From a virus, in IMG/VR virus record IMGVR_UViG_3300020153_000130, positions 1 through 24,002 of that record: DNA of 24,002 nt; one strand, written 5' to 3'. This document shows, in pieces, positions 5,034 through 24,002 of the stretch (within the stretch, counting starts at the first letter, position 1; each line of letters opens with the position of its first letter). The notes under the pieces were generated by a model. The model was given only the letters and a program-made list of their open reading frames with translations, searched no databases and was not told where the DNA came from. Made by a program: the position numbers and the translations under genes.

Positions 5034-5068
5034 AAAAAAAATACACATCTCATCCATAAAATATTTGT
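5034..5068 (+). promoter_or_regulatory. Late promoter module, copy 1 (portal)
   Basis: A8 (5034-5041), 12-nt spacer, CCATAAAATATT (5054-5065), then ATG at 5069. The -10-like TAAAAT is 5057-5062, putting the predicted transcription start exactly on the A of ATG. There is no Shine-Dalgarno sequence and no -35 hexamer. Confidence 0.65.
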
Positions 5069-7018
5069 ATGAATCCACTAAACTTTTTTAAAACAATTGC
5101 TAAGGCTTTAAGTCGAAAACCAGTTTTTTCCAGTATTTTTATTCCTTGGGGAATTGGTCGATCGTTTACAAGACGTGATTATTACTATGGTATTGTTTTT
5201 TCATGTATTGATGCTATTGCACAAAATGTTGCGGCTACTCGATTTTTTTTAGTTAAAAAAGATGATAAAACTCAAGTTAAAGAAGAAGAACACCCATCAA
5301 TTAAACTTTTATATAAACCAAACCCTTTTCAGTCATCTTATGATTTTTTTTATCTTATTTCTTCTCATATTGATGCTTTTGGAAAAGCATATATCTATCC
5401 AGTTTTAGATGGCAAAGGAGAACCTAAAGAACTTTGGCTTTTAGATCCACAAAAAACAAAACCAGTGCCAGGAAAAGAAAGCTTATTGGAAGGTTATGTT
5501 TATTACAACTTAAAAGGTGAAAAAATACCATTTGAAGTTCATCAATTAATTGAAATAAAAAGACAAAATCCATTTAATCAAATAGAAGGCATATCAACGA
5601 TTGAAATGGCCAAACACTCAATTGAGGGCGATATAAACGCAGTTGAGTGGAATAAAAACTTTTTTGAAAATGGAGCAATGCCATCTGGGGTTTTATCAAC
5701 TGAACAAGAGTTGTCAGAAGAAGCATTTCAAAGACTAAAAAAACAATGGCAAGAGCGGTATCAGGGAAAAGAAAACGCTCATCGGCCAATGATTTTAGAA
5801 GCAGGCCTTCAATGGACTTCTTTGACCATAAAACAAAAAGATATGGATTTTATAGAACAAAGACGTTTTTCTCGCGATGAGATTTTATCTATCTTTAAAG
5901 TCCCAAAAACAGTTTTGGCAATAACCGATGATGTAAACAGAGCTAATGCTGAGGCCTCAGAATATGTTTTTGCCAAAAGAACCATTGAGCCAAGACTTCG
6001 ACTTATCTTTGATAAATTAAATCAGTTTTATATGCCGTTATTTGCCGATGGTGACAAATATACCTTGCGATTTGAGGACCCAACACCAGAAAATGTAGAA
6101 CTTAAACTTAAAAAATGGGAAACGGGACTTAGAGCTGGATTTTTAACCATAAATGAAGTAAGAGCTGAAGATAAAAAAGAACCGGTAAAAGGTGGCGATG
6201 TGATTTATATTCCTTTCAACTTGATGCCGTTGTCTTCTGAGGAAAATAAAGACAGCAAAGAAGAAACAAAGACAATTAAAACTAAAGCGGTTGATCATAC
6301 ACCTTTAAGAGATGAGACTTTACGAAGATTGGAAGGCCAATATCGGGCAAAACTTGATGAACTTTTTAGAAAACTAACATCAGAAATTAGAAAAAAGAAA
6401 AAGAGCATAAAGAAAAAACAAGAGGATCCATTACTTGATGAGATTATTGCCGACATTTATCCAGACACAACTGAATGGAAAAAATTATTTACCACAATCA
6501 CCTTTGATTTGGGAGTTCAGGCTACTCAAGCGGCAATTGATCATGTGGTGCAAACTTATGGTATTCAAAGAATGACTGATCCAGCATATAAAAAAGTTAT
6601 TGACTGGCTTAAAAAAAGAATAGACACAACCGCCAAAGAAGTTGATCAAACATTATACAACCGGGCAAGAGAGATAATTGCCAGAAACTTAGCTGATGAT
6701 CTTTTAGATGTTGAAAAAATTCGTGAAGAAGTGGCCAACGTAATTGATGATGAAAGATACTGGAGAGTGGAGCGAATTGTAAGAACTGAACTTTTTACCG
6801 CTTATTCAGAAACAGAATACCAAAGTTATCTTCAATCAGGAACGGTTAAAAACCTAAAATGGATTGCGGCGGAAGATGAGCGAACTTGCCCAATATGTAT
6901 GGAAAACCATTTAAAAGTTGTTGGACTTGGTGAGGAATTTCCAAGCGGGCATACTCACACACCCGCACACATTCAATGTCGTTGCTCATCAATTCCAACT
7001 TTAGATGAAAAAACCTAA
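5069..7018 (+). CDS. Portal protein fused to a MuF-type head morphogenesis domain
   Basis: 649-aa protein. Residues 1-390 match the HK97-family portal layout: an RDYYYGIVFSCIDAIAQNVA-type N-terminal helix, a central SRDEILSIFKVPKTVLAI clip/crown segment and the conserved NRANAEASEYVF segment. The portal dodecamer forms the DNA entry vertex. Residues about 470-649 are a Mu gpF-like domain ending with four cysteines, C607/C610 and C637/C639 (TCPIC...QCRC), likely a zinc site. The two genes are separate in many phages, so this is a fusion. The linker at about 395-470 is Lys-rich. It is preceded by late promoter copy 1 and followed by copy 2. Confidence 0.92.
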   Translation: MNPLNFFKTIAKALSRKPVFSSIFIPWGIGRSFTRRDYYYGIVFSCIDAIAQNVAATRFFLVKKDDKTQVKEEEHPSIKLLYKPNPFQSSYDFFYLISSHIDAFGKAYIYPVLDGKGEPKELWLLDPQKTKPVPGKESLLEGYVYYNLKGEKIPFEVHQLIEIKRQNPFNQIEGISTIEMAKHSIEGDINAVEWNKNFFENGAMPSGVLSTEQELSEEAFQRLKKQWQERYQGKENAHRPMILEAGLQWTSLTIKQKDMDFIEQRRFSRDEILSIFKVPKTVLAITDDVNRANAEASEYVFAKRTIEPRLRLIFDKLNQFYMPLFADGDKYTLRFEDPTPENVELKLKKWETGLRAGFLTINEVRAEDKKEPVKGGDVIYIPFNLMPLSSEENKDSKEETKTIKTKAVDHTPLRDETLRRLEGQYRAKLDELFRKLTSEIRKKKKSIKKKQEDPLLDEIIADIYPDTTEWKKLFTTITFDLGVQATQAAIDHVVQTYGIQRMTDPAYKKVIDWLKKRIDTTAKEVDQTLYNRAREIIARNLADDLLDVEKIREEVANVIDDERYWRVERIVRTELFTAYSETEYQSYLQSGTVKNLKWIAAEDERTCPICMENHLKVVGLGEEFPSGHTHTPAHIQCRCSSIPTLDEKT

Positions 7019-7022
7019 AAAG

Positions 7023-7056
7023 AAAAAAAATTAATAGTTGTCCATAAAATATTTAT
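7023..7056 (+). promoter_or_regulatory. Late promoter module, copy 2 (prohead protease)
   Basis: A8 (7023-7030), 11-nt spacer, CCATAAAATATT (7042-7053), ATG at 7057. TAAAAT is 7045-7050, so the predicted start of transcription equals the A of ATG. No Shine-Dalgarno sequence is present. Confidence 0.65.
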
Positions 7057-8304
7057 ATGAAAAACATAAAAAACAAATTATTTACCTCAGCAACTTGTAA
7101 GTCTATTGTAAACAAGGACGAGAAAATCGTCCATGTAATCGCATCAACTGGTGTAGTTGACAGACACGGTGAATCTGTTAATCCTAAAGGATGGAAGTTA
7201 GATAACTACTTAAAAAATCCTGTTGTTTTAATTGCTCATGATTATCGATCACTGCCAATTGGAAAAGCAATAAAAGTCTGGGTTGAAGATGAAAAACTTC
7301 AGGCACTTTTGCAAATTGCAAACACTGAGGCGGGTAAAGAAGTTTTTTATTTAGTTGAGGGTGGATTTTTAAATACGGTTTCGGTTGGTTTCATTCCAAC
7401 TAAGTATGGTGTTGCCGGCCAAGATCAATACACCATTATGGAGGCTGAACTTTTGGAAATTTCATTTGTCGCCGTTCCCGCAAATCCAGAAGCTTTAATT
7501 AACAACGACGTTCAATCAAGATTTTTATTTTTGGAAAAATCAATTGAGGAGGCACAATACAAAGGTGTAGTTCCTTTTGAATCTTATGAAAAAGATGATT
7601 CATCTTCATGGGATGGGGATAAAGCACGAAAACAGTTGGCAAAGTGGGCATCATCTGATGGATCAGGCGATAAAGATAAAATTGACTGGGGGAAATATAA
7701 AAAAGGTTTTGCTTGGTTTGATGAGAAAAATAAGGAAAATTTTGGTGCTTATAAACTTCCTCATCATTATGTTAAAGATGGAAAACTGGTAACTGTTTGG
7801 TCGGGAGTCAAGGCGGCAATGGGGGCTTTGCTTGGTGCAAGAGGTGGGACTGATATGCCAACTGAGGATAGGAAAGGAGTATATAATCATTTAGCAAAAC
7901 ACTATAAAGATTTTGATAAAGAAGTACCCGAGTTTAAAGAATACACAAATGAAGAACTTTTTGAATTAGATCAAAAAGGATTGATTGATTGCGGTGAAAG
8001 TATAGAGGTTAAAAAAGAATATTTAGCAAAGATAAAGTCACAAGCCGATGAAATAAAAAGTCTTAAAGAAACTATAAAAAGTGTGATGGAAGAAGTGCTT
8101 AAAAAATATAAAGTAGTTGAGGAAAGGGTTGTGGAAAAAATAATTAAAGTAAAAGACAACGAACTATCTGAGGGGGCAACTAAACTTCTTTATCAAATAA
8201 GAAAAGAGATGAGAAAAAGTGACAAATATACCGGGCTTTCATTAAAAATCTTAAATTCGCTATTAAAAGTTAATAGTTTTGATGCGAAAGGGGGTGAAAA
8301 ATAA
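7057..8304 (+). CDS. Prohead maturation protease with C-terminal scaffold-like region
   Basis: 415-aa protein. Residues about 20-160 are an HK97-type prohead protease (S78 fold): VVDRHGESVNPKGW, H61 in LIAHDY and S109 in NTVSVGF are the expected catalytic His and Ser, followed by ELLEISFVAVPANPEA. Residues about 185-300 form a second domain (WDGDKARKQLAKW, FGAYKLPHH, ARGGTDMP) that occurs in many phage head proteins. Residues about 325-375 are a coiled coil (IKSQADEIKSLKETIKSVME), probably serving as internal scaffold. Self-cleavage and capsid cleavage would follow assembly. The capsid gene starts 2 nt after the stop. Confidence 0.9.
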   Translation: MKNIKNKLFTSATCKSIVNKDEKIVHVIASTGVVDRHGESVNPKGWKLDNYLKNPVVLIAHDYRSLPIGKAIKVWVEDEKLQALLQIANTEAGKEVFYLVEGGFLNTVSVGFIPTKYGVAGQDQYTIMEAELLEISFVAVPANPEALINNDVQSRFLFLEKSIEEAQYKGVVPFESYEKDDSSSWDGDKARKQLAKWASSDGSGDKDKIDWGKYKKGFAWFDEKNKENFGAYKLPHHYVKDGKLVTVWSGVKAAMGALLGARGGTDMPTEDRKGVYNHLAKHYKDFDKEVPEFKEYTNEELFELDQKGLIDCGESIEVKKEYLAKIKSQADEIKSLKETIKSVMEEVLKKYKVVEERVVEKIIKVKDNELSEGATKLLYQIRKEMRKSDKYTGLSLKILNSLLKVNSFDAKGGEK

Positions 8305-8306
8305 AC

Positions 8307-9440
8307 ATGGAAGAGGAAAAAAAAGCTTTCGAGGAATTAAGCCAAAAGGTTATTGAAACCGTAACACCAGCTATCACTGAAAAGGTGTTGGCTGAACTTC
8401 CTCGAAGAAAAAATATCTTCGGCGGCGAAAGCGCTAATGCTGAAGTTTTAGAGCAAAAAAAGGCTGCGGCTGAATATTTGCGAGCTAAATTTTTAAGAGA
8501 TGAGGCTAAAGCAAAAGCCTTGTCTTCAGGCACCGCAGGTAGTGGTGCTGAACTGGTTCCAACTTACATTTCCTCAGAAATTATAAGATTGGCACCCGAA
8601 ACTGGGTTAGTAAGAAAATATGCTCGAAAATGGCCGATGCAGGGAATGAATGAAAACATCCCCACTATGTCAAGTCTTGTTTCCTTTAGAATTGATAGTG
8701 ATGGACAGAGAATTAATGCTTCTCAGCCAACCACAGGTAATGTTCCATTACGCACTAAAACTTTAGGAGTAATCGTTCCCGTTCCTAAACGTCTTTTAAG
8801 AAACGCAACAGTAAATTTGGTCGATGCATTAGTATCTTTAGCGGCCGAAGCTATTGCGTTATCTGAAGATAAATGGGCGATTTTAGGCTTGACTTCAGGT
8901 GAGGGAGTTTTCCAACATGCTTCAGTTCCTGGTGTGACTTTAGGGACTGGAGATACCACCTATGCAAAGGTTGAACCCGAGGATCTACTTGATGCGCTTG
9001 ATCAAGTTGTTGAAGAAGCTGTCAACGACAAAATGAAATGGGTAATGTCCTTATCCGTCTTAAACGCTCTTCGTAGAAAAAGAGCCGTCGTTGGCACTGA
9101 TCCTCAAGGGTTCTTGCTTGGTGGACCCGGAGTTCCTGTCCCAAAAACTTTATGGGATATAGCATATGAGATTCGATCTTACATGCCAAGAACTTCCGAG
9201 TCAAATCAAGCTGGTAAAAAGTTTATTGCTCTTGTTAACTTTGATTACGTGCTGTTTGGTGATGAAAATGTTTATACCATCGAAATTTCCGATGAGGCAA
9301 CCATCACCGACACCAACGGATCAACCCTTATCAACTTATTTGAACAGGAGATGGTGGGGGTTAAAGTTACAGAGTCAGTAGACATCCAGCTTGCTGAACC
9401 AAGCAAAGCATTTGCATGGATTAAAACAGCTGCATCATAA
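8307..9440 (+). CDS. Major capsid protein (HK97 fold)
   Basis: 377-aa major capsid protein. The first ~70 residues are helical, charged and probably the removable delta/scaffold segment. An HK97-like core follows from about residue 75 (SGAELVPTYISSEIIRL, then IPTMSSLVSFRIDSDGQRIN) with E-loop and P-domain-like segments, ending in VGVKVTESVDIQLAEPSKAFAWIK. A GGGGGTG Shine-Dalgarno (8290-8296) lies 10 nt upstream. It lacks its own late motif and is probably read with the protease, with Shine-Dalgarno-driven translation giving the high output a capsid needs. The folded RNA at 9449-9554 directly follows. Confidence 0.92.
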   Translation: MEEEKKAFEELSQKVIETVTPAITEKVLAELPRRKNIFGGESANAEVLEQKKAAAEYLRAKFLRDEAKAKALSSGTAGSGAELVPTYISSEIIRLAPETGLVRKYARKWPMQGMNENIPTMSSLVSFRIDSDGQRINASQPTTGNVPLRTKTLGVIVPVPKRLLRNATVNLVDALVSLAAEAIALSEDKWAILGLTSGEGVFQHASVPGVTLGTGDTTYAKVEPEDLLDALDQVVEEAVNDKMKWVMSLSVLNALRRKRAVVGTDPQGFLLGGPGVPVPKTLWDIAYEIRSYMPRTSESNQAGKKFIALVNFDYVLFGDENVYTIEISDEATITDTNGSTLINLFEQEMVGVKVTESVDIQLAEPSKAFAWIKTAAS

Positions 9441-9451
9441 GTTTAAACCGA

Positions 9452-9554
9452 TGGCCGTAGGGTGAGTGGCAATGCCTAACGAAAAAGATAAGTTAGGCAA
9501 ATACCACCGGCCAACATCTTAGGCCATCTAGGGATGGGGGTGGCCTGAGATGTT
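9452..9554 (+). promoter_or_regulatory. Structured RNA between capsid gene and next gene
   Basis: A GC-rich island (55 of 106 bases at 9449-9554 by hand count) in AT-rich DNA, with nested pairing. TGGCCG (9452-9457) pairs with CGGCCA (9508-9513); GTGG (9466-9469) with CCAC (9504-9507); TGCCTAAC (9473-9480) with GTTAGGCA (9492-9499). A second hairpin pairs 9513-9526 with 9541-9554, 14 bp with one G-T wobble. Its 3' arm contains the ATG of the next gene (9550-9552) and its loop holds the G-rich ribosome site. A 16-codon frame (9472-9522) ends in the left arm, so its translation could open the hairpin. There is no U-tract directly after the stem, so it is not a simple terminator. It matches no riboswitch class I know. 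Confidence 0.6.
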
Positions 9555-9777: not shown

Positions 9778-9806
9778 AAATAATAAAAAAATAATAATAA
9801 TATGTT

Positions 9807-10747: not shown

Positions 10748-10752
10748 AAAAT

Positions 10753-11337: not shown

Positions 11338-11756
11338 CATACAATACTTTGATTGAAAAAATAAAAAATGTAATTATCAGTAATGTATCGGAAATCCAAT
11401 CATCTTATGATTATTATCCAGAGAGTTTAACATCATTTCCTTGTTTAGTGGTGGTTCCTATCGGCCATGAGGATAGTTTTTATACTCTATCTCACTCAGG
11501 ATTTAATACCCGTCAATACTCAATATCAATTCGAATAATTGGGGATTTAGAAAATACCGAGATAAACACACAAAAGAAAATAAGAGAATTAACCGATAAG
11601 GTGATTGATGTTTTGGAGAAAAACCCAACTTTAGATAATACCATTGATTGGTGTTATCCAACCAAAGCTCGTTATGGTTTTGAGGGTCAACCGGCAAAAT
11701 ATTATTATTCAGAAATTACTTTAAATGTTAAGTTTAGATTTCAACGGGCAAATTAA
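11334..11756 (+). CDS. Tail completion / tail terminator protein
   Basis: 140-aa protein between the gp10-like gene and the tail tube, as expected for a lambda gpU-like terminator. It has an N-terminal helix (TLIEKIKNVIISNVSEI), a beta strand (FPCLVVVPIGHED), a SISIRIIGDLENTEINTQKK segment and a final strand (SEITLNVKFRFQ). The assignment follows position and secondary structure, not a decisive motif. Its stop is followed by the A-tract of late promoter copy 3. Confidence 0.65.
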   Translation: MTYNTLIEKIKNVIISNVSEIQSSYDYYPESLTSFPCLVVVPIGHEDSFYTLSHSGFNTRQYSISIRIIGDLENTEINTQKKIRELTDKVIDVLEKNPTLDNTIDWCYPTKARYGFEGQPAKYYYSEITLNVKFRFQRAN

Positions 11757-11789
11757 AAAAAAATAAAAAGGTAACCATATAATACTTTT
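11755..11789 (+). promoter_or_regulatory. Late promoter module, copy 3 (variant)
   Basis: A9 (11755-11763), 11-nt spacer, CCATATAATACT (11775-11786), ATG at 11790. This copy has a perfect TATAAT (11778-11783) instead of TAAAAT and keeps the exact spacing, so the predicted start of transcription is the A of ATG. The A-tract overlaps the stop codon of the upstream gene. Confidence 0.6.
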
Positions 11790-11957
11790 ATGAGAAAAAA
11801 ATATATTTACAAAGGCGAGGTTGAAACTTACGTACCAAAAGTGGGGATTGTTTATCCCAATCAAGAGATTGAAACAGAAAAAGAAATAAGAAATGCGTTA
11901 TTTGAGGAGGTAAAAGAAGAAAAAAAAGAAAATAAAGAAAAAAAGAAAAAAAATTAA
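11790..11957 (+). CDS. Small hypothetical protein before the tail tube gene
   Basis: 55-aa protein (MRKKYIYKGEVETYVPKV... to ...KEKKKKN), unknown function. The first 40 residues look like a small beta fold (YKGEVETYVP, GIVYPNQEIETEKE), then LFEEV and a Lys/Glu-rich tail. It has its own late-type promoter, arguing that it is real. Small proteins with a similar body and charged tail occur next to capsid or tube genes, and the one at 9550 looks distantly alike. It may decorate a virion part (inference). Confidence 0.7.
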   Translation: MRKKYIYKGEVETYVPKVGIVYPNQEIETEKEIRNALFEEVKEEKKENKEKKKKN

Positions 11958-11982
11958 AAGTTCACCATAAAATATTAATACT
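11946..11982 (+). promoter_or_regulatory. Late promoter module, copy 4 (tail tube)
   Basis: A8 (11946-11953), 11-nt spacer, CCATAAAATATT (11965-11976), then ATG at 11983. TAAAAT is 11968-11973. The ATG is 3 nt further downstream than in most copies, so a 3-nt leader is predicted. The A-tract overlaps the coding end of the 11790 gene. Confidence 0.65.
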
Positions 11983-12933
11983 ATGGCATCAGGACTAAAT
12001 AACCATATAGGAATAGGAAAAGAAACTGTATTTGGTACACCAGTTGCTCCAACAGTTTTTTTACCCATTAAAGAATCAGATGGAATTCAAATAAACAAAG
12101 ACATTCAGTTTATTGAAGCGATAAAATCGGGGGTGGCGGGGAAAAATAAAGGTGCTTTTGTTGGTAAAGTTGAATATAGCGGTGGATTTGAAAGCGATGC
12201 TTATCCTCAATTTTTAGGTCATATTTTACGTTCTGCTTTTGGATCAGTATCATCAGCTTTAGAATCAGGAGAAACAACTGTGTATCGTCATACATTTACT
12301 GAAAGCTTGACTAAACCATCTTATACCGTTGAACAAAAGATTGGCGAGATTGTGAAAAGATTTGCTGGATTTGTGGTTCAAAACTTAAAAATAGAATCAA
12401 AAGCAGGTGAATCGGTTGCTGTCTCTTTTGAGGGATTGGCCAAAACCCAGGCTGATGCTACTGCTCAAACTCCAGCCTATGAGACTTCAAGACCATTTAA
12501 CTTTGCCGATGTAACATCAATTAAAATCGGAAATACTGAGGTTAAATCTTATTGTGAAGAGCTAAGCTTTGAATATGACAATCAACTTGAAGGATTTTAT
12601 AGTATGGGGGCTAATGAACTTCAATCAGTTTATCCCAAGCCATCTGAAGCAAAAGGTAAATTAACCCTTTACTTAGATGACACAACCAAAGCATTTTTAG
12701 AAGATTATATTTCAAAAACTGAGCGAGCAATTGAAATAAAAATCGAAGGCGATTCAATTGGTGCGGCCAGTAAAGAAAAACTTTATATCAAACTTCCAAA
12801 AGCGGTGATGACTTCAGTTGGGACTAAACTATCAACTGAATATAACGCTTTGGAGATTGAATTTGAAGGAGTTGTTGATGAAACCGATGGGTTAATAATA
12901 GCTTATCTTATAAATACATTATCAAGTTATTAA
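11983..12933 (+). CDS. Major tail tube protein
   Basis: 316-aa tail tube subunit. The N-terminus (GLNNHIGIGKETVFGTPVAP) carries the 'G-G-Et-yGT-v-pt' signature common to long tail tube proteins, followed by a beta-rich body (GKVEYSGGFESDAYPQFLGH, then LKIESKAGESVAVSFEGLAK) and a second beta domain at about residues 170-300. It would polymerise into the tube around the tape measure. Its own late promoter fits a highly expressed structural gene, and the chaperone gene follows after 1 nt. Confidence 0.88.
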   Translation: MASGLNNHIGIGKETVFGTPVAPTVFLPIKESDGIQINKDIQFIEAIKSGVAGKNKGAFVGKVEYSGGFESDAYPQFLGHILRSAFGSVSSALESGETTVYRHTFTESLTKPSYTVEQKIGEIVKRFAGFVVQNLKIESKAGESVAVSFEGLAKTQADATAQTPAYETSRPFNFADVTSIKIGNTEVKSYCEELSFEYDNQLEGFYSMGANELQSVYPKPSEAKGKLTLYLDDTTKAFLEDYISKTERAIEIKIEGDSIGAASKEKLYIKLPKAVMTSVGTKLSTEYNALEIEFEGVVDETDGLIIAYLINTLSSY

Positions 12934-12934
12934 T

Positions 12935-13499: not shown

Positions 13500-13500
13500 T

Positions 13501-13971
13501 ATGGGGTTTTTCGATTTTTTAAAAAAACAACCTCCTAAAATAAATTTTAATTTAGAGTTAAAAACGGAATTTAAAGAAGATGATGTTATTGACACTTCTT
13601 GGGACATAGATATTTTAAATAAAAAAAAGGAAGAGGCTTTAGGAAAAAAAGATTATGGAAGAGCTTCACAAATTTTATTTTTAATTGCTCGTAAATTATA
13701 TGAAAAAGGTGAAAACCATATTGAAGCTGCCTCAGAATCAATAAGATTAAGTTTATTATCAATATTAGAGAAACCTTTTGGAGAAAAGAAAGTAAAGATA
13801 ATTACAGCATTAGATAAATCATGCTCAAATTGTAGAAAATTACACGGAAAAACTTTAACAGTTGATAAGGCTTTAAAATTAAATCTTTTACCTTGTAAAA
13901 AATGCAAACACGAAATTAATCCGAAGACAAAACTTGGTTGGTGTAGATGTGTTTATGTAGAAACAATTTAA
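13501..13971 (+). CDS. Cys-rich protein, likely zinc-binding
   Basis: 156-aa protein, function unknown. Residues about 30-100 are helical and TPR-like (KKEEALGKKDYGRASQILFL). The end holds three cysteine pairs: C108/C111, C132/C135 and C148/C150 (CSNCRKLHGKTLT, LPCKKCKH, WCRCVY). The first and last pairs resemble the zinc knuckle at the end of MuF domains, as in the portal fusion at 5069. It lies between the tail chaperone and an antisense nuclease, where the tape measure would normally come. Its stop overlaps the convergent nuclease stop by 2 nt. It may be an accessory gene. Confidence 0.7.
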   Translation: MGFFDFLKKQPPKINFNLELKTEFKEDDVIDTSWDIDILNKKKEEALGKKDYGRASQILFLIARKLYEKGENHIEAASESIRLSLLSILEKPFGEKKVKIITALDKSCSNCRKLHGKTLTVDKALKLNLLPCKKCKHEINPKTKLGWCRCVYVETI

Positions 13972-14966
13972 CGACAGATTTTTTCGCAAGGAATACCATC
14001 ACCATCGCTATCTTTATTAGAACATCCGCAGTTATTTAATTGAAAATAAGCCTCTTCACAGCTTGACATTTGAGAACAAGATTTAGCACAATTACAGACA
14101 AAACTTCCAGTATTAGAATTTATATTATTTTGTGATGTATTAGATGTATTAGATAAGCAGGCATCATCAGCCCAAAGCCCGATTTTATTTTCCCTTGCGT
14201 ATCTTTCTGCTTCTTTAAACTCTTTTTGGTATTTATATGGTAGATTATAAGTATATTCATACGCATAACCTTCTTTAATCATAGAAAGATTAAAGTTTGT
14301 TCCATCAGGTAAAAAAACATATCTAAGTAGACGATTATATTTATCTCTTTCACCTTGAGAAGGATCGAACTCAAGATAAACACTTTGGCCATAAAGAATA
14401 GATTTAGCTTTATTAGAAGCCTCAACACCAAAACATTCAACTTTCTTTCGGGGATCAACCGTTTCCGGTGTATTTATACCAATAAGTCTTACTCTTTCTT
14501 TTTTACCATTAATTTCAACGTCAATTGTGTCGCCATCAATAACATTGATTACTCTATATAATTCGCCTTTATTTTCATTATTATTAAAACTTAAGGTTGG
14601 AGTGATTAAGTTAATAGGTAAAGGTGTAATTGAAGGAATTTTGCTTGGGGTTACTTTTTTTTCAACGCTTGATGATAATACTTTTTCATTTTTATTATTA
14701 ATTGTTTTTTTTATATTTTGCTTCGGTGGAGCTTTTGGATAAAAAAACATTGAAACAAAAAACAAGATAAACACTAAAATATATCGTTTTTTATTTGTTA
14801 GATTAGGAATAAAAGATTTTATTAGATTAAAACTTTTAGGAATTAGAAATAATGAGATTATTAAGGAAATTAAAAAACCAATCAAAGAATCTTTGATTAA
14901 AGTAATAGCAACCAATAAGAATCCAAAACCAAAAAACCAATTGATTAGATTTAAAATCCAAATCAT
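13968..14966 (-). CDS. Membrane-anchored thermonuclease with Excalibur domain
   Basis: The only minus-strand gene. In the longer 345-aa numbering: hydrophobic segments at about 14-36, 40-58 and 75-90, a low-complexity linker (95-145), then a staphylococcal-nuclease domain (148-284) with DGDT (157-160), RLIGINTPE (R173, E181) and R225/R228. A C-terminal Excalibur calcium-binding domain follows (304-344) with four Cys pairs and DSDGDGIPCE. The SNase fold cuts DNA/RNA with Ca2+. I place the start at Met14 (14966, 332 aa) because TATAAT lies 7 nt upstream. The longer start at 15005 would run across the plus-strand tape measure promoter. Likely an outward-facing accessory nuclease. Confidence 0.85.
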   Translation of the reverse strand: MIWILNLINWFFGFGFLLVAITLIKDSLIGFLISLIISLFLIPKSFNLIKSFIPNLTNKKRYILVFILFFVSMFFYPKAPPKQNIKKTINNKNEKVLSSSVEKKVTPSKIPSITPLPINLITPTLSFNNNENKGELYRVINVIDGDTIDVEINGKKERVRLIGINTPETVDPRKKVECFGVEASNKAKSILYGQSVYLEFDPSQGERDKYNRLLRYVFLPDGTNFNLSMIKEGYAYEYTYNLPYKYQKEFKEAERYARENKIGLWADDACLSNTSNTSQNNINSNTGSFVCNCAKSCSQMSSCEEAYFQLNNCGCSNKDSDGDGIPCEKICR

Positions 14967-14973
14967 CCTTTCT

Positions 14974-14979
14974 ATTATA
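14974..14979 (-). promoter_or_regulatory. -10 box (TATAAT) for the antisense nuclease
   Basis: Minus-strand TATAAT, with the ATG at 14966 seven bases downstream. It supports the shorter nuclease start and a near-leaderless mRNA. It sits next to the tape measure promoter's A9 tract, so the two promoters are divergent and closely packed. Confidence 0.45.
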
Positions 14980-14981
14980 TC

Positions 14982-15016
14982 AAAAAAAAACAGCCACCCA
15001 TCCATAAAATATTAGT
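14982..15016 (+). promoter_or_regulatory. Late promoter module, copy 5 (tape measure)
   Basis: A9 (14982-14990), 11-nt spacer, CCATAAAATATT (15002-15013), ATG at 15017. TAAAAT is 15005-15010, with the predicted transcription start exactly on the A of ATG. This copy restarts plus-strand transcription after the antisense gene. Confidence 0.65.
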
Positions 15017-16870
15017 ATGGAAAACCTACTACAGATTACAATGCGGCTCAAAGATGAAGCCACTGGTGAATTACAAAAAACTGTTAAAAATATAAACAGT
15101 GCGTTTAATGAAGCAGAAAAATCATCATCTAACTTTAAGGCTGCTCTTTCTGATGTTGGGAAAATAGCGGCGGGGATTGGATTGTATAAGTTAGTTGACT
15201 GGGTGGTGTCTTACACAAAAGAAATGATTACGGCAGGGGTAGAAACAGCTAAATTTTATGAGAATGTGAAAATTGGTTATACAACTATATTGAAAGATGG
15301 CCAAAAGGCTCAAAAGGTAATTGAAGAAATTAAAGCAACTGCCTTAAAAACTCCATTTGACACCGGTGCTTTATTAAGAGCTAATCAGCTTTTAATCTCA
15401 ACTGGTTTATCAGCCGAAGAAAGTCAAAAAGCGGTAGTTTTACTTGGTAATGCAGTTTTAGCCACTGGTGGTGGTAATGAGGAATTATTAAGAATGGCGG
15501 TTAATTTACAGCAAATAAAAAATATGGGTCAAGCAACCGCATTAGATGTTCGTCAGTTTGCAATGGCGGGAATTCCGATTTATAAAATGGTAGCGGAGGC
15601 TCAAGGGAAAAGTGTTGAGCAGGTAAAGGATATGAAAATAACCTATGAGATGTTAGTTGACGCTTTTGAAAAAGCGGCTCAAAAAGGTGGAATGTTTTAT
15701 AAAGGAATTGAAAATGCGGCGGGGTCTTTTCAACAAGTACAATCTAATTTAAAAGAAAATCTAAACGTTTTTTTTGCGGATATTTTGACAAAATCAGGAG
15801 TGTTTGATGCTTTAAAAAATGGAATGTTAAAAATACAAAATGCTTTAACTGTTATAAAGCCTTACATCATTGACTTTATTCAAAATCTAAGTAAATTTGT
15901 CCAAGAACATCAAAAATTGATAACATTTATTTTAATAGCAAGTGGTGTGTTTTTAGGATTAGTTTCAATTATAGCAATAGTTATTGGTGTTATAACGGTT
16001 TTGTCTTTTGTTATTGGATTGATTACTTCACCGATATTAATTGTAATTGGGGCTATTTCATTATTGATAACTGCTTTTGTTTTATTTAAAGATCAAATAT
16101 TTTTAATTCTTCAAAATATTTATTTAACAGTATCAACTATTTTCACTCAAATATGGATGTTTATCAGTAATATTTTTATGATGATTTTTAATATTGTATC
16201 TACAATATTGTCATCTATTTGGGCTGTTATCTCATATATTCTTACTCAAATCTTTACTTTTTTTCAATTTATATTTTTAGCAATAAAAGCAGTTGTGGAA
16301 ATAGTTTTTACAATTATTTCAACTATTATTTCAACAATTTTAGATGCTATTTGGGGAGTAATAGGTTCAACTTTGACAGGTTGGTGGAATACTTTTAAAA
16401 CATACTTAAATGCCATTAAAAACACAGTTCAATCGATTTATAACTCAGTTCATGATTGGTTTGTTGATAAATTAAACAAAACATGGAAAGCAGTGACTGA
16501 CATTACTAAAAAAATTTGGGACGCTTTTAAAAATATGGCAAAGGGGATAATGGATGCTTTAAGATCAATAAAATTTCCTCATTTGTCAATCGGCGAGGGC
16601 TCAGTGACAATTATGGGCAAAGAAATCAAGTATCCAAAATTAAACGTAGATTGGTATCAGGAAGGCGGTTGGGTTAGAAGAACGGGATTAGCAGTAGTCC
16701 ATGCTGGGGAGTATGTATTATCGCGTGATATGTTAAGAGGACAAAAAAATCCCGAAGTTGGAATTGGAAAACAACAATATGTTTATAACACTATTTATGC
16801 TAATGTTAACACTCAAGTTGATTTAGATTACTTAGCGTACAAACTTTCATATATGCTTCGAAATTCTTGA
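15017..16870 (+). CDS. Tape measure protein
   Basis: 617-aa tape measure that sets tail length and is ejected with the DNA. It begins with the ITMRLKDEATGELQKTVKNI helix typical of the family. Residues about 75-255 match the tape-measure N-terminal domain (TTILKDGQKAQKVIEEIKAT, PFDTGALLRANQLLISTG, QFAMAGIPIYKMVAE). Residues about 290-460 are strongly hydrophobic with several membrane-like segments. The end (GLAVVHAGEYVLSRDMLRG) matches the common C-terminal HAGE motif. At roughly 1.5 angstroms per helical residue the tail would be about 90 nm (estimate). Confidence 0.92.
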   Translation: MENLLQITMRLKDEATGELQKTVKNINSAFNEAEKSSSNFKAALSDVGKIAAGIGLYKLVDWVVSYTKEMITAGVETAKFYENVKIGYTTILKDGQKAQKVIEEIKATALKTPFDTGALLRANQLLISTGLSAEESQKAVVLLGNAVLATGGGNEELLRMAVNLQQIKNMGQATALDVRQFAMAGIPIYKMVAEAQGKSVEQVKDMKITYEMLVDAFEKAAQKGGMFYKGIENAAGSFQQVQSNLKENLNVFFADILTKSGVFDALKNGMLKIQNALTVIKPYIIDFIQNLSKFVQEHQKLITFILIASGVFLGLVSIIAIVIGVITVLSFVIGLITSPILIVIGAISLLITAFVLFKDQIFLILQNIYLTVSTIFTQIWMFISNIFMMIFNIVSTILSSIWAVISYILTQIFTFFQFIFLAIKAVVEIVFTIISTIISTILDAIWGVIGSTLTGWWNTFKTYLNAIKNTVQSIYNSVHDWFVDKLNKTWKAVTDITKKIWDAFKNMAKGIMDALRSIKFPHLSIGEGSVTIMGKEIKYPKLNVDWYQEGGWVRRTGLAVVHAGEYVLSRDMLRGQKNPEVGIGKQQYVYNTIYANVNTQVDLDYLAYKLSYMLRNS

Positions 16871-16875
16871 TTTTA

Positions 16876-16881: not shown

Positions 16882-16888
16882 TAACTTA

Positions 16889-17794
16889 ATGCTTAAAAAA
16901 CTATTAATAACAACATTTGAAATAATAATTAATATAACGATTGAGGTTTTTAAATTTTTGATCAATATCTTATCTTACATAAAAGAAAAAATTAAAATCG
17001 AAAAAGAAAAAAAATATAAAGTAATTTCAGTAGATGAAAATAAAGATTATAAGATAACAATAACTGAAGAAATCGAAGATTATAAACCACAATCTTTTAC
17101 ACCTCCAGTAGAAAATAAAAACTATGATAAAAACTGCCCTTATTGTCACAAAGCTTTAGAAAAACCACCTCAAAGAAAAAAACAATGTCCTTATTGTAAA
17201 CAATATATGTATGTGAGAACACGTCTTAAAGATAGGAAAAAAGTATTAGTAACTAAAGAAGAAGCAGACAGAATTGATTTAGAGTGGGAAAAATATCAAT
17301 TTGAAGAAGAAATAAAGACAATAAGAGTAAATCATAATATCGCTTTAAGTGAATGGGAAAGTGTTAAAAATAAATTAAGGCAAGAATTTGGTCGTGATCC
17401 GCTTTTTAATGATGTTTTATGGGCAATATTAAATGATCGGTTGAATAAAGCGATTATAGAAAAAGATAATTATAAGGTAAGGATAATTTTTAGTGATATG
17501 ATTAAGATTTTAAGGAATGAAAATAAATTAAAATCTGTTTTAGGTTATTCTTTAATGATTTGTTATTTAGATTGTGATAACTATAGTAAGATGTCATTAC
17601 CAAAATCAAAATGGTTTGCCCCTTCTTATTTATCAGAAATTATAAATACTATTAAATCTTTAAATCTTTCAATGGATGAAGTTAAAAAAATATTTTTTGA
17701 ACAAGCAAATAGTTATCAAAAAGCTTTAGGACTAACTTATTCACCAAATGATGCTTGGAATGATATAAAAGAACATATTCTTCCGTTAAAATAA
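16889..17794 (+). CDS. Zinc-ribbon accessory protein
   Basis: 301-aa protein of unknown function. Residues about 5-30 form a hydrophobic, probably membrane or amphipathic helix. A two-CxxC zinc ribbon follows (C83/C86 in CPYCHKAL, C100/C103 in CPYCKQYM) with YVRTRLKDRKKVLVT just after it. This ribbon-plus-'LVT-EEA--ID' arrangement recurs in uncharacterised bacterial proteins. The rest is helical. It sits between the tape measure and distal tail genes, where no structural gene is expected, and has its own TATAAT box, so it looks like cargo. A signalling or regulatory role is speculative. Confidence 0.7.
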   Translation: MLKKLLITTFEIIINITIEVFKFLINILSYIKEKIKIEKEKKYKVISVDENKDYKITITEEIEDYKPQSFTPPVENKNYDKNCPYCHKALEKPPQRKKQCPYCKQYMYVRTRLKDRKKVLVTKEEADRIDLEWEKYQFEEEIKTIRVNHNIALSEWESVKNKLRQEFGRDPLFNDVLWAILNDRLNKAIIEKDNYKVRIIFSDMIKILRNENKLKSVLGYSLMICYLDCDNYSKMSLPKSKWFAPSYLSEIINTIKSLNLSMDEVKKIFFEQANSYQKALGLTYSPNDAWNDIKEHILPLK

Positions 17795-17806
17795 TACCCA
17801 ATTTTT

Positions 17807-17840
17807 AAAAAAAAGAAGACTATCTCCATAAAATATTTAT
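17807..17840 (+). promoter_or_regulatory. Late promoter module, copy 6 (distal tail)
   Basis: A8 (17807-17814), 11-nt spacer, CCATAAAATATT (17826-17837), ATG at 17841. TAAAAT is 17829-17834, placing the predicted start of transcription on the A of ATG. Confidence 0.65.
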
Positions 17841-18674
17841 ATGATCACTAAACTTATTATCGACAACTTAGAACTATCACCAGAAAACGGCTATTTTATT
17901 CAAGCAGTTAAGGATTTAGGATATAAAACTAAATATCCGGTGGCGTCTATTTTATATCTTCACGGAGTAAAGATTGGTGATTTATTTTTTGAAAATAAAG
18001 CATTGGCGGTAGAACTTAAAATCGGGGCTTTGACAATCTCTGATTTAATTGAAAAAAGAAGTAAGATTTATGAGAAATTGACTTTAAAAGAATACGGTGA
18101 TGATAAAATAACAATTGAATTTCACTTAGGAAATAATTTAATTCTTGAAGCAAAAGGTGTTGTTAAAGATGTTAATTCAGATTTAGAAGTAGATAATTTG
18201 ACAACTTGCGATTTATCTTTTACTTTAGAACTTGAAGAGCCATTTTTAAAATCAAAACAGACTTATGAGGTAAGTTTTGGTATTACTAAAGGTGGCGGGG
18301 CTTCAGTCCCGATGGAAATTCCATTAAGCATGACACAAGGGTCTTCTGGGTTTTCAATTGTCAACAACGGCGGAAATATTTTTGCTTTTCCAGAGATTTA
18401 TTTTTATGGTCAATTAACTAATCCAGTTTTGTTAAATAAAACAACTAATAAATCAATTTCATTTAATCAGACAATAACTTCAGGCAATCATATTTACGTT
18501 GACACCTATAATCGAATCGTGGTTGATAATTTAGGTAATAATAAAAGAGATAAAATGAGTGGTGATTTTGTGATTTTAGAAAAAGGTGAAAATCAATTTA
18601 CATTATCATCAGATGTGCCAACGGAGACGGGATTTGTTAAGTTGATTTATAAGTATTTTTATATCTCAATATGA
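17841..18674 (+). CDS. Distal tail protein (Dit-like)
   Basis: 277-aa protein directly after the tape measure module and before the hub, the standard distal tail position. It starts with KLIIDNLELSPENGYFIQAV, typical of Dit N-termini. A beta-rich body, then IPLSMTQGSSGFSIVNNGGN and FPEIYFYGQLTNPVLLN, recalls the second galectin-like domain. It would form the ring joining the tube to the baseplate hub. It overlaps the hub gene by 4 nt (ATGA), suggesting coupled translation. Confidence 0.8.
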   Translation: MITKLIIDNLELSPENGYFIQAVKDLGYKTKYPVASILYLHGVKIGDLFFENKALAVELKIGALTISDLIEKRSKIYEKLTLKEYGDDKITIEFHLGNNLILEAKGVVKDVNSDLEVDNLTTCDLSFTLELEEPFLKSKQTYEVSFGITKGGGASVPMEIPLSMTQGSSGFSIVNNGGNIFAFPEIYFYGQLTNPVLLNKTTNKSISFNQTITSGNHIYVDTYNRIVVDNLGNNKRDKMSGDFVILEKGENQFTLSSDVPTETGFVKLIYKYFYISI

Positions 18675-19696: not shown

Positions 19697-19702
19697 AAAC
19701 TT

Positions 19703-20419
19703 ATGGATAACTTTTTAGAAGAATTTAAAAAATTGAAAGAAAAGGTTGAGGAGTTGGAGAAAAGAACGATTACTGACTTAAGTGTAGATAATTTAAAAAC
19801 TGATTTAATAAAATTAAAAGAACAATCATCTTCACTACCACAACCACCATCTGGAATAGGTTTTTTTTATTATAAAAATAAAACATTATATTTAAAAAAT
19901 GAACAAAATGAAACTACAATTATTGTCCCGGTTGGGACTATATTACCATTTGCTTCAAGTATTATTCCATCAGGTTTTTTGTTGTGTGATGGGTCTGAAG
20001 TTTCAAGAACAACTTATTCAGAACTTTTTAATGTTATAGGCACAACTTATGGCTCGGGCAATGGTTCAACTACTTTTAATTTACCAAATTTGAAAGGTAG
20101 AGTTTTAGTCGGGTTAGATTCTTCTCAATCTGAATTTAACAATTTAGGAAAAACTGGTGGTTCTAAGACTCATACACTTTCAATTTCTGAAATTCCCTCC
20201 CACAATCACAGTTTAACTGGTGTAAATAATAATAATTTTACGGTTCAAGCAGGAATGGGAGCTGGTGTATCAGGAATTCCAAATAATGTTTCAGGTTGGG
20301 GAAGTTATAATCAAGCTCACTGGTTTACTGGGTCTTTCACTACAGTTTATGTTGGTGGCGGACAACCACATAATAATTTACAACCATATTTGACTATTAA
20401 CTTTATAATTAAGTATTAA
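19703..20419 (+). CDS. Collar-domain tail fibre protein
   Basis: 238-aa receptor-binding-type protein. An N-terminal coiled coil (about 3-45, LEEFKKLKEKVEELEKRTI) and short linker lead to a tail collar domain at about 75-150: VGTILPFASSIIPSGFLLCD, GSEVSRTTYSELFNVIGTTYG, STTFNLPNLKGRVLVGLD. The end (SHNHSLTGV... then HNNLQPYLTINFIIKY) is the typical short C-terminus of collar fibres, with an HxH motif. It would form trimeric side or tip fibres. It is followed by a 55-nt gap containing late promoter copy 7. Confidence 0.88.
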   Translation: MDNFLEEFKKLKEKVEELEKRTITDLSVDNLKTDLIKLKEQSSSLPQPPSGIGFFYYKNKTLYLKNEQNETTIIVPVGTILPFASSIIPSGFLLCDGSEVSRTTYSELFNVIGTTYGSGNGSTTFNLPNLKGRVLVGLDSSQSEFNNLGKTGGSKTHTLSISEIPSHNHSLTGVNNNNFTVQAGMGAGVSGIPNNVSGWGSYNQAHWFTGSFTTVYVGGGQPHNNLQPYLTINFIIKY

Positions 20420-20440
20420 ATTTTTCAATAACTCAAAAAC

Positions 20441-20474
20441 AAAAAAAATAACTTCTCCTCCATAAAATATTTAT
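20441..20474 (+). promoter_or_regulatory. Late promoter module, copy 7
   Basis: A8 (20441-20448), 11-nt spacer, CCATAAAATATT (20460-20471), ATG at 20475. TAAAAT is 20463-20468, with the predicted transcription start on the A of ATG. Confidence 0.65.
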
Positions 20475-20747
20475 ATGATTGACTTTCAGCTTATTAAACA
20501 AAAAGAAGAAAAAGGACTTATATCTTACGATGTAATTGATAATATGTTAGTGGTTTTTGAAAAGGTTTATGATGAGGAAACAGGTCAGGAGAAAGAACCA
20601 AAAAAAACATATATTGACTTAAAAGAATTAATCATAAAAAGAAAACTCTATCAAGATGAGATAAATAAAATTGACGAGATTTTAAATAAAGCAAAAGAAA
20701 AGAAAAAAACAATTATTAGTTTATTAACAAAAGAAATCTATGGCTAA
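20475..20747 (+). CDS. Small coiled-coil protein in the fibre module
   Basis: 90-aa protein of unknown function. Beta-like residues (ISYDVIDNMLVVFEKVYDEE) precede a helical coiled coil (about 50-90: LKELIIKRKLYQDEINKIDE, then KAKEKKKTIISLL). It could be a fibre linker or assembly chaperone (inference). It has its own late promoter and overlaps the next gene by 8 nt, so the two are probably translated together. Confidence 0.65.
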   Translation: MIDFQLIKQKEEKGLISYDVIDNMLVVFEKVYDEETGQEKEPKKTYIDLKELIIKRKLYQDEINKIDEILNKAKEKKKTIISLLTKEIYG

Positions 20748-21618
20748 ATATATCTCAATCAGAAGCGGGGCAACGGCACTTCCCGAACAATCAGTGGCTC
20801 ACTTGACGCACGATTTGATTTATCAAACTGGGGTAGTTGATTTAACTTCAGATTGGAAAGTCTTGGAAAATAATCCTCAAAATATGACAGTGAATATTTC
20901 ATCAGGTAGAGGATTTTTTAAGAAAACATCAATTACTTATCACGGCTATTCTGATAGCGTTGAAAATATTTCAATTGGAGCTAATAACTCGGGTAATCCT
21001 CGAATTGATGCGGTTGTTTTATATGTTGATTTAACGGCTACTCCAAATTCTGATGCTTCAAATGTTTTAAAATCGATAGTAGTACAAGGAACACCAGCGT
21101 CATCACCTGTAGCACCAACGGATAATGAAATTCAAACAGCGATAGGATCAGGCAATCCTTTTTTAAGATTGGCTAATGTTTATGTAGAAAATGGTGCGTC
21201 GTCAATAACTAATGCTAATATCACCGATACGAGAGTACCTGCGTATTTAAAAACTCCGGGGGGAATTTATCAACAAGATTTATTAAAGCCAAAAGTAAAG
21301 GCAAGTTATCAGGAAACTTATATTACATCAGGTAGCGGATCAATTATTTTAGATTGTAGTAAATATAATGTTTTTAAAATCACTTTAACAGGAAATGCTA
21401 CTTTATCAGTTTCTAATATTTCAATTGGCCAGTTTATAAAGATTGATTTAAAGCAAGATGCGACTGGATCAAGAACTGTCACTTGGTTTTCAACGATAAA
21501 ATGGCCAGATGGGGTTGAACCAGTTTTAACACCAACAGCAAATAAGACTGATAGTTTTGTTATTGAATGCGTCGACACTAATCAATATTTAGGTTATATA
21601 GTTGGACAAAACTTATGA
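20740..21618 (+). CDS. Baseplate / tail fibre structural protein
   Basis: 292-aa structural protein. Residues 50-170 match a phage pattern: NISSGRGFFKK, then RIDAVVLYVDL, IVVQGTPASSPVAPTDNEI, FLRLANVYVENGASSIT and NITDTRVPAYL, as in baseplate upper proteins and fibre adaptor modules of many siphoviruses. Residues 190-292 form a beta-rich lobe (TLTGNATLSVSNISIGQFIK, RTVTWFSTIKWPDG) resembling receptor-binding domains. It overlaps the next small gene by 4 nt. Confidence 0.75.
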   Translation: MAKYISIRSGATALPEQSVAHLTHDLIYQTGVVDLTSDWKVLENNPQNMTVNISSGRGFFKKTSITYHGYSDSVENISIGANNSGNPRIDAVVLYVDLTATPNSDASNVLKSIVVQGTPASSPVAPTDNEIQTAIGSGNPFLRLANVYVENGASSITNANITDTRVPAYLKTPGGIYQQDLLKPKVKASYQETYITSGSGSIILDCSKYNVFKITLTGNATLSVSNISIGQFIKIDLKQDATGSRTVTWFSTIKWPDGVEPVLTPTANKTDSFVIECVDTNQYLGYIVGQNL

Positions 21619-21791
21619 AAACGATTTTTATAATTCAAGGTTATGAGCAAAAGATGGAAGATGGTAGATTAATAGATGTGGTTGTTTTTGAGGTTTACGC
21701 CAAGTCGGAAAAAGAGGCTATAAATAAAGCAAAAAAATATTTAAAAAAACCATTTTATAGAGTTAGCAGTATTATTGAAAAAAATGAATGA
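21615..21791 (+). CDS. Small hypothetical protein between fibre genes
   Basis: 58-aa protein (MKTIFIIQGYEQKMEDGRLIDVVV...), function unknown. It looks like a compact beta-alpha fold ending in a basic helix (KSEKEAINKAKKYLKK). It overlaps both neighbours by 4 nt (ATGA each time), which suggests a real gene translated by coupling. Such tiny genes sometimes encode fibre chaperones. Confidence 0.65.
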   Translation: MKTIFIIQGYEQKMEDGRLIDVVVFEVYAKSEKEAINKAKKYLKKPFYRVSSIIEKNE

Positions 21792-23068
21792 GAATACCAA
21801 AAGATGTTATTTTAATTTGGACAGGACAAAATTCTAATATCCCATCTGGATGGAGTAGGGAAACTTCTTTGGATGATAAATTTCCTAAAGCTTGGGGAAG
21901 TCAAAATCCTAATCAAACTGGTGGATCTTTAACTCATTCACATACAACGCAACCTCATTCTCATAATTTAAGCAATCATACTCATTCTTATACTTTAAAT
22001 CCTGATCCTAATACTTCGTATGGGGGAGTTTGGGGTGGAGGAGAGTCAATAAGAGATGGCCATACTCATACAGGAACAAGTGGGAATGTTATTGGCGGAA
22101 CAACCTCTTCAGATAGTTTTACAACTGGTGAATCGTCAAATTTACCGCCTTATTATGAGGTTATTTTTATAAAAGCTGGAAATTCATCAATTTTATCGGA
22201 GGGAATTATTGCTTTATGGGGAGATAATAATCCTCCATCTGATTGGCAAATTTGTAATGGAAGTAATGGGTCGCCAGATTTAAGAAATAAATATTTAAAA
22301 GGTGCGGCAAGTGGGGCTAATGCCGGAGGGACAGGCGGAAGTTATTATAATGTTCATAGTTTAAATCATTCTCATACACCAACTTCTCATTATCATGCTA
22401 CATCGACAAGCAATCAATCAAGTGATGCTCGTGCAGGATCAGGAGGAAGTTATGAGTGGGCAGTTCCATATTGGCACACTCATCAGGTTAGTTTTGGAAG
22501 TTCAACTCAAGATATAAATTCATTTACTGGAAATTATAATACTTCAGAAATAGTTGAACCAGCTTATAAAAAGTTATTAGCTATACAATTTAAAACAGGT
22601 GCAATAAAAAGAAAAGGAATTATTGGTTTATGGTTAGGTGATATAAATCATATACCAAAAGGTTGGGTTTTATGCGATGGAAATAATGGAACGTTAGATT
22701 TAAGAGATAAATTTATAAAAATAGCTAACGACGTAAATGAGGTTGGACAAGTAGGTGGGAATAATACTCATAGTCATGCTAATTTTTCTCATAGTCATTC
22801 AGGAAATAGTGGACATAGTCATTCGGCTTCTTCAGATGCTCATCAAAATCATTCTTCTCAAATTCAAGCAGGTAATGCGAGTTCTCAACATAGAACTTTA
22901 CAAAGAAATTATCATTCAAGCGTAAGTGTAAATTCAGTTATAGCAAATTATGATAATTCTAATATTGTTTTTAATTCAGCCGATAATCAACCACCATATA
23001 GGACTGTTGCTTATATTCAATTTCAAAAAGAAATATACGGGGGTAGCGCTCTTTTAAACTTTCTTTAA
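21788..23068 (+). CDS. Three-repeat collar-type, His-rich fibre protein
   Basis: 426-aa probable receptor-binding protein made of three tandem copies of one collar-like unit: about 1-132, 133-276 and 277-426. Each has I-LW-G-----P-GW (ILIWTGQNSNIPSGW, IIALWGDNNPPSDW, IIGLWLGDINHIPKGW), a (D/N)KF or (N)KYLK step, a GG turn, a burst of HxH motifs (HSHTTQPHSH, HSHTPTSHYH, HSHSGNSGHSH) and a closing PPY or PAY strand (PPYYEVIFIK, PAYKKLLAIQF, PPYRTVAYIQF). In T4 gp12 and P2 spikes His-x-His sites bind metal, so zinc or iron is expected here. The end lacks a separate lectin domain. Confidence 0.85.
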   Translation: MRIPKDVILIWTGQNSNIPSGWSRETSLDDKFPKAWGSQNPNQTGGSLTHSHTTQPHSHNLSNHTHSYTLNPDPNTSYGGVWGGGESIRDGHTHTGTSGNVIGGTTSSDSFTTGESSNLPPYYEVIFIKAGNSSILSEGIIALWGDNNPPSDWQICNGSNGSPDLRNKYLKGAASGANAGGTGGSYYNVHSLNHSHTPTSHYHATSTSNQSSDARAGSGGSYEWAVPYWHTHQVSFGSSTQDINSFTGNYNTSEIVEPAYKKLLAIQFKTGAIKRKGIIGLWLGDINHIPKGWVLCDGNNGTLDLRDKFIKIANDVNEVGQVGGNNTHSHANFSHSHSGNSGHSHSASSDAHQNHSSQIQAGNASSQHRTLQRNYHSSVSVNSVIANYDNSNIVFNSADNQPPYRTVAYIQFQKEIYGGSALLNFL

Positions 23069-23071
23069 CTT

Positions 23072-23108
23072 AAAAAAATATAACTTCTCAACCATAAAAT
23101 ATTTTTGT
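23072..23108 (+). promoter_or_regulatory. Late promoter module, copy 8 (C39-like peptidase)
   Basis: A7 (23072-23078), 13-nt spacer, CCATAAAATATT (23092-23103), then ATG at 23109. TAAAAT is 23095-23100. The ATG is 2 nt further than in most copies, so a 2-nt leader is predicted. Confidence 0.6.
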
Positions 23109-24002
23109 ATGAGAAAACTAAGTTTACCGAACATCTACTCACAACGAGATGGACGTTGGGGAAATATACTTTTAGGTTTTAATACAAATCCTCAATATAA
23201 TATTGCCAATTACGGTTGTTTGATAACTTGTTTATCAATGGTGGTAAATTATTATGGTAAAAATGATACTCCACAAACTATAAATGAAAAATTAAAACAA
23301 GTAAACGGTTTTGTTTCAGGTGGTTTATATGTTTGGGGAGCAATAACAAAATATTATGGTGATATTAAAGAAAAATTGGTAAACACACCTCAAAAATTAA
23401 CTGACTCTCAAATAAATGAGATAAAACAAGCAATTGATAATGGCTATCCTGTTATCTTCCAGATTGATTTTATTCCAGAAACGTCGCCAACGGACATGCA
23501 CTATGTTTTATGCATTGGCTATGATGATGCTGATGAAAATAACTTTCAAATTGCTGACCCATGGATTGGTCAAATTAGATCGTTAAAAGATTATCTTCGC
23601 GGAACTCGGCCATCGGCTCGAATTTCCATTGAGCAATATATAATTTATCAAGGAAAAGTCCCAAAACCTGGGGATTATTATCTTGGAATTGACTTAAATA
23701 ACAAAGAAAGTGTTAAGGTATGTGTCAAAACTTGGAAAGAAGTTGTAGATGGGAAGTTTATAAGAAAAGGAGAAGTTGAAAAGAATTATATTCCTAAATC
23801 AGAATACGAAAAGGTAGTTTTAGAACGAGATGAATTTAAAAAAAATCAATTAAGTAGTGAAGCCTTACTTTATGAGAAAAACACCTTAGCAGTTAAGCTT
23901 CAGGAATGCGAAAAACAAAGAGATATATACAAAGCAGAATATGAAAACGCAACTAAAGAAGGCGGTTATATAGAACAAATAAAGTATTTAGAAGAAGCAA
24001 AA
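23109..24002 (+). CDS. C39-like cysteine peptidase, C-terminal part beyond window
   Basis: 298 codons are open to the window end, so the protein is partial at the 3' side. Residues 8-165 fit peptidase family C39_2: QRDGRWGN with Q12, the nucleophile C37 in YGCLITCLSMV, H131 in MHYVLCIGYDD and D150 in ADPWIG. Such domains cut peptides, often in cell-wall lysis or virion-associated host contact. A charged coiled coil follows from about residue 225 (YEKVVLERDEFKKNQLSSEA). No signal peptide is evident. Its position after the fibres suggests a lysis or tail-tip enzyme; which one is unresolved. It has its own late promoter. Confidence 0.85.
   Translation, partial: MRKLSLPNIYSQRDGRWGNILLGFNTNPQYNIANYGCLITCLSMVVNYYGKNDTPQTINEKLKQVNGFVSGGLYVWGAITKYYGDIKEKLVNTPQKLTDSQINEIKQAIDNGYPVIFQIDFIPETSPTDMHYVLCIGYDDADENNFQIADPWIGQIRSLKDYLRGTRPSARISIEQYIIYQGKVPKPGDYYLGIDLNNKESVKVCVKTWKEVVDGKFIRKGEVEKNYIPKSEYEKVVLERDEFKKNQLSSEALLYEKNTLAVKLQECEKQRDIYKAEYENATKEGGYIEQIKYLEEAK

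Follow-up and report, generated by a model that had tools for sequence, protein, structure and literature searches.

An A-tract module repeated before the late genes of a probable Patescibacteria phage, and a candidate factor for its recognition

Eight copies of an A-tract module before structural genes

The window analysed here, a viral record of 24,002 bases with 31.8% G+C, carries a repeated module made up of A7-9, a spacer of 11-13 nt and the box CCATAAAATATT (once CCATATAATACT), followed by an ATG. Its eight copies all lie on the + strand, as follows.

5034-5065, + strand: predicted late promoter copy 1 (A8, N12, CCATAAAATATT), before the portal-MuF gene 5069-7018
7023-7053, + strand: predicted late promoter copy 2, before the prohead protease gene 7057-8304, which is followed by the capsid gene 8307-9440
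11755-11786, + strand: predicted late promoter copy 3 (TATAAT variant), before a small gene starting at 11790
11946-11976, + strand: predicted late promoter copy 4, before the tail tube gene 11983-12933
14982-15013, + strand: predicted late promoter copy 5, before the tape measure gene 15017-16870
17807-17837, + strand: predicted late promoter copy 6, before the distal tail (Dit) gene 17841-18674
20441-20471, + strand: predicted late promoter copy 7, before a small fibre-region gene 20475-20747
23072-23103, + strand: predicted late promoter copy 8, before a peptidase-like gene 23109-end (labelled by inspection of its sequence only; its PHROG match is of unknown function)

The original prediction had placed a copy before each of the ATGs at 5069, 7057, 11790, 11983, 15017, 17841, 20475 and 23109; all eight are confirmed, each ATG lying directly 3' of its module, and a scan of both strands of the window returned no ninth. 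From copy 1 to copy 8, the A-tracts measure 8, 8, 9, 8, 9, 8, 8 and 7 nt and the spacers between tract and box 12, 11, 11, 11, 11, 11, 11 and 13 nt, in agreement with the predicted 11 nt with 12 and 13 in two copies. The box is CCATAAAATATT in 7 of the 8 copies, the one at 11775 reading CCATATAATACT. The better-fixed edge of the A-tract is its 5' edge, which always falls 19-20 nt before the box; the 3' edge and the spacer vary. Inside the box lies a -10-like hexamer, TAAAAT (TATAAT in copy 3). Six of the eight copies have exactly 6 nt between the end of this hexamer and the ATG; copies 4 and 8 have 9 nt and 8 nt, respectively.

In its strict form (A7+, 10-13 nt, CCATA[AT]AATA[CT]T), the module was observed 8 times against 0.00 expected, with none in any of 100 dinucleotide-preserving shuffles; for a loose form, the 8 observed copies compare with 0.01 expected in 100 such shuffles. 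The box by itself, with 2 mismatches allowed, was found 21 times in the window against 13 expected: it is the combination of A-tract and box that is remarkable, the box alone being unremarkable. Considering this excess of 8 over 0.00, and that all copies precede structural genes, it is very probable that the modules form a promoter class of late or structural genes, as had been proposed. Window genes inside operons lack the element, and those preceded by it have no Shine-Dalgarno sequence. Searches of the window for tRNAs and Rfam families gave no matches. Copy 5 overlaps the 5' end of a divergent ORF on the - strand, a SNase and Excalibur gene (13968-15005) lying opposite to its surroundings within the late region; its likely start is at 14966, and a TATAAT 7 nt upstream of this position suggests that the gene probably has a leaderless promoter of its own.

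Spread of the module among relatives, and the probable host

Motif searches beyond the window showed that the module is kept in close relatives. In G001, G009, L025, L026 and L028 (terL 92-94% or portal 88-90% identical to the window's), and in L021, a further relative found through the module pattern itself, A-tract and box are retained and the letters of the spacer have changed; the tape-measure promoter, for instance, occurs as CAGCCACCCAT, GCCGTGCACTCT and CACAAAATAT, with diverged spacers between a constant A-tract and a constant box. The 27.5 kb of G001 contain seven modules, each of them preceding a late gene. The window's extra module relative to G001 is the Dit copy, preceded by the gene 16889-17794; in G001, the ORFs of tape measure and Dit share 4 nt. 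The gene 16889-17794, between tape measure and Dit, is zinc-ribbon-like. Among all viral contigs, the exact module was found in 18 stretches, about half of them from the window clade, and the remainder, single matches with no ATG at the right distance, look like chance. One contig, L050 (IMGVR_UViG_3300043544_000085), has other genes unlike the window's and shares with it the fibre-region gene together with one A module, which suggests that a cassette moved with its promoter.

Four more distant phages (G002, G003, G004 and G005), whose terL is 63-68% identical to the window's, lack the A module. They contain 3-6 copies each of TRTATAA-N18/19-TANAAT against 0.25-0.35 expected in shuffles, an excess that is descriptive and no independent test, since the pattern was chosen by eye on the same contigs. 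The genes that follow these modules are those for portal, protease, tape measure, fibre and the like. Box and ATG are anything from 6 to more than 20 nt apart, whereas the spacing from element to box is nearly constant, which argues for a role in transcription rather than translation. Further out, G006 (terL 53%) has neither the A module nor the TRTATAA module, and none was seen on inspection of prophages with 30-35% portal identity, so the module seems confined to one phage family.

A terL alignment scan of 84,980 species genomes found relatives in Patescibacteria only: a Daviesbacteria MAG, in which terS/terL adjoin secA and dnaG, and another Patescibacteria MAG. Of 380 Patescibacteria genomes, 10 contain portal relatives, at 20-35% identity. 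On the strength of these similarities, the Patescibacteria, a very large group of tiny, mostly uncultured bacteria, are the probable host phylum of the window virus. The Daviesbacteria terS/terL pair (L037, 9550-11347; terL 65% identical to the window's) is flanked by host secA/dnaG on one side and a BlaI-like gene on the other, and no further phage structural genes were recognised in its vicinity. The exact module had 0 matches in the 380 sampled Patescibacteria genomes; an equal frequency in host DNA, named beforehand as the outcome that would speak against a phage promoter, was thus not what we found. Published phages of hot-spring Roizmanbacteria measure 31-32 kb at about 33% G+C (PMC6509639).

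A host-type -10, a predicted leaderless geometry and a candidate recognition factor

Judged by its letters, the -10 of all eight copies is of host type (TAAAAT/TATAAT), as in host-sigma-dependent promoters. As transcription usually starts 6-7 nt after a -10, a hexamer ending 6 nt before the ATG predicts a start on or next to the A of that codon, and the late mRNAs would probably have their 5' ends at the ATG or no more than about 3 nt from it, and hence be leaderless or nearly so. Relative to this predicted start, the A-tract covers about -34 to -27, and so lies, in line with the earlier proposal, where a -35 element would be expected. The same geometry is seen in the probable host phylum. In a Daviesbacteria sample of 382 kb with 138 upstream regions, 11 of 32 TATAAT hexamers are separated from the ATG by exactly 6 nt (P about 7e-11 by a binomial test corrected for 65 positions). 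The peak recurs at this distance in a second genome, G163, though less strongly (6 copies). Leaderless starts therefore look like a host habit, with only the upstream element being phage-specific. Indeed, none of the 32 Daviesbacteria hexamers has an A7 tract or TRTATAA upstream, and in neither of the two host genomes does an A7 tract adjoin a TATAAT. The missing -35 is by itself a weak argument, since host leaderless promoters score alike against TTGACA: at 16-19 nt, the phage modules reach at best 2-4 of 6 positions and the host promoters 2-5 of 6.

What, then, might recognise the upstream element? The early part of the window offers a candidate.

1393-1421, + strand: canonical promoter of the candidate factor gene, TTGACA-N17-TAAAAT
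1436-1455, + strand: inverted repeat CACGAA-N8-TTCGTG, lying across the GTG start of that gene
1453-1935, + strand: gene of the candidate recognition factor, 160 aa, with a sigma-70-region-4-like HTH and a conserved C-terminal domain
Corresponding genes: G001, 1749-2255; G009, 2907-3413; G005, 2285-2686
Corresponding genes, - strand (coordinates count from the other end): G004, 2320-2613; G002, 7317-7646; G003, 23754-24323

All phages of either class whose contigs cover the region have a small HTH gene 5' of their MTase/terS/terL genes. A specific recognition factor, as invoked in the original prediction, is plausible. In two relatives the promoter of the factor gene is TTGACA-N17-TACAAT. The inverted repeat at 1436-1455 could be an operator or a hairpin. 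The window protein matches PHROG 351, RNA polymerase sigma factor, with E=1.2e-4, and has no Pfam sigma match above the cut-off; its G002 orthologue matches Pfam Sigma70_r4_2 above the cut-off (E=6.9e-6), and the G005 counterpart matches Pfam GerE, a related HTH family. The C-terminal domain is fused to the HTH in the window clade and G003 and forms a separate ORF in G002, G004 and G005, and the window protein is found with E=2e-6 by a C-terminal profile that excluded the window clade. As the HTH similarity between the window clade and the TRTATAA class (E 0.03-0.3) is not significant alone, it is the C-terminal domain and the gene position that argue for kinship between the factors of the two classes. 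Their recognition helices read QAVHQI or QAVYQI in the phages with TRTATAA, and TSKIYKI in the A-tract clade.

Structure prediction for the window protein was of low quality (pLDDT 54.5), and no structural match to it reached significance. For the G003 orthologue, confidence is limited to the second two thirds of the model, which looks like sigma region 4 domains at Foldseek E-values short of significance. When viral contigs were scanned with ORF 1453 or the G005 counterpart, no new relatives turned up; a PDB sequence search with the regulator profile returned nothing relevant, and the Pfam and PHROG results contained no match of the candidate to an ArpU/RinA-type family. Within annotations that cover the early parts of the longer relatives only partly, no regulator other than the ORF 1453 family recurs at the same place in all relatives of either promoter class. 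Its product is, we infer, the best candidate for the late-promoter recognition factor.

Proposed mechanism, alternatives and known systems

We consider it reasonably probable that the modules are late promoters combining a host -10 with a phage factor, most likely ORF 1453, on the A-tract, and with near-leaderless starts. They would serve the late genes of a temperate siphovirus of Patescibacteria, whose host's RNA polymerase and primary sigma factor would read the ordinary -10 (TAAAAT/TATAAT), while a small phage protein, most likely the product of ORF 1453-1935, would occupy the A-tract and replace the -35 contact. Transcription would start at the start codon or at most 3 nt from it, by way of the host's leaderless initiation, and the factor gene would be expressed earlier than the late genes, from its standard host promoter. 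The start sites, the timing, the binding of the protein to the A-tract and its contact with host sigma or polymerase are what we infer in this scheme. More tentatively, we posit the possibility that the protein acts as a detached sigma region 4, which would give -35 recognition in trans while host sigma reads the -10; changes in this protein could then have re-specified all late promoters together, between TRTATAA and the A-tract within one clade, with leaderless late mRNAs arising in the window clade.

Could these late promoters function without any phage factor? Host polymerase would read the -10, helped by the shape of the A-tract (narrow minor groove, alpha-CTD or sigma contact), and timing would be set otherwise, for instance by repression or copy number. 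Indeed, A-tracts help polymerase binding, the modules have a host-like -10, and a weak -35 is frequent among host leaderless promoters, so that A-tract promoters might work with host sigma alone. However, the two host genomes have no A7 beside their TATAAT and the full module is absent from the 380 genomes, the tract at -34 to -27 lies downstream of the usual UP-element position, and related phages carry a sequence-specific TRTATAA at a fixed distance, which a specific protein fits better than does DNA shape; we hold this explanation to be unlikely. Less probable still, and doubtful to our mind, is recognition by some other phage factor, whose gene would lie in genome sequence that the contig lacks. 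The contig is incomplete, as it starts at an integrase and ends within a gene, but the ORF 1453 family alone stands in the same place in all relatives of both promoter classes. We reject as very improbable the idea that the conserved sequence is a signal for translation, acting as a ribosome site or operator of late genes within the 5' leaders of longer mRNAs, which would suit a box directly before the ATG of genes that have no Shine-Dalgarno sequence: the box-to-ATG distance varies in relatives while the element-to-box distance stays fixed, the box is a sigma-70 -10 consensus, TATAAT-N6-ATG also marks host promoters, and genes inside operons are without the element. A phage RNA polymerase was also set aside, with no candidate recognised among the ORFs inspected, some of the relatives' ORFs having been compared with families, and a -10 that is host-like.

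The phage-activated reading that we favour has parallels, each of them partial. T4 late promoters (gp55/gp33/gp45), to which the modules had been likened, depend on a phage sigma that reads a special -10, TATAAATA, and are not known to have an element upstream of it. Both sets would be made up of many short promoters before late genes and, in the proposed reading, lack a -35 hexamer; however, a -10 of TAAAAT/TATAAT and a conserved upstream element set the modules apart, and the T4 late analogy is left unsupported, as the -10 is of the ordinary host type and only the upstream element is unusual. The ArpU/RinA/LtrA late regulators of Gram-positive phages are small sigma-region-4-like proteins encoded just before the terminase genes and thought to switch on late genes; the candidate, likewise a small protein with a probable sigma-region-4-like HTH, is encoded at a comparable position, but would act on many small promoters rather than on one late operon promoter. 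MotA of T4 is not known to be a sigma-region-4 homologue. At the T4 middle promoters (MotA/AsiA sigma appropriation), the host-type -10 is kept and a phage element replaces the -35, bound by a phage protein working with host sigma (PMC6755090). The same arrangement of host-type -10 and phage element in the -35 place is predicted here, although the element is A7-9 rather than a MotA box, the genes are late and not middle, and the geometry would be leaderless. The phi29 late promoter A3 has a poor -35 consensus and is activated by the phage protein p4, which reads A-tracts, binding several of them within an inverted repeat upstream of the promoter (PMC3100819). A late promoter with an A-tract and, in the proposed reading, a poor -35 would be common to both, whereas the modules have a single A-tract at -34 to -27 and their candidate factor is a sigma region 4-type HTH protein. 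By this comparison, the proposed mechanism resembles T4 middle (MotA) or phi29 p4 activation more than T4 late transcription, and we would file the module set with the phage-activated late promoters, as a variant.

In a limited library of literature, our search found no description of late gene control in Patescibacteria phages, for which the modules now supply a recognisable late-promoter signature and a candidate regulator. Two natural versions of the element/factor pair, A-tract and TRTATAA, are available for swapping. The analysis further suggests that leaderless initiation is common in at least one Patescibacteria lineage. Several of the leaderless Daviesbacteria promoters (L087-L106) have CCTATAGTTTGAT, or a close form of it, upstream of TATAAT-N6-ATG.
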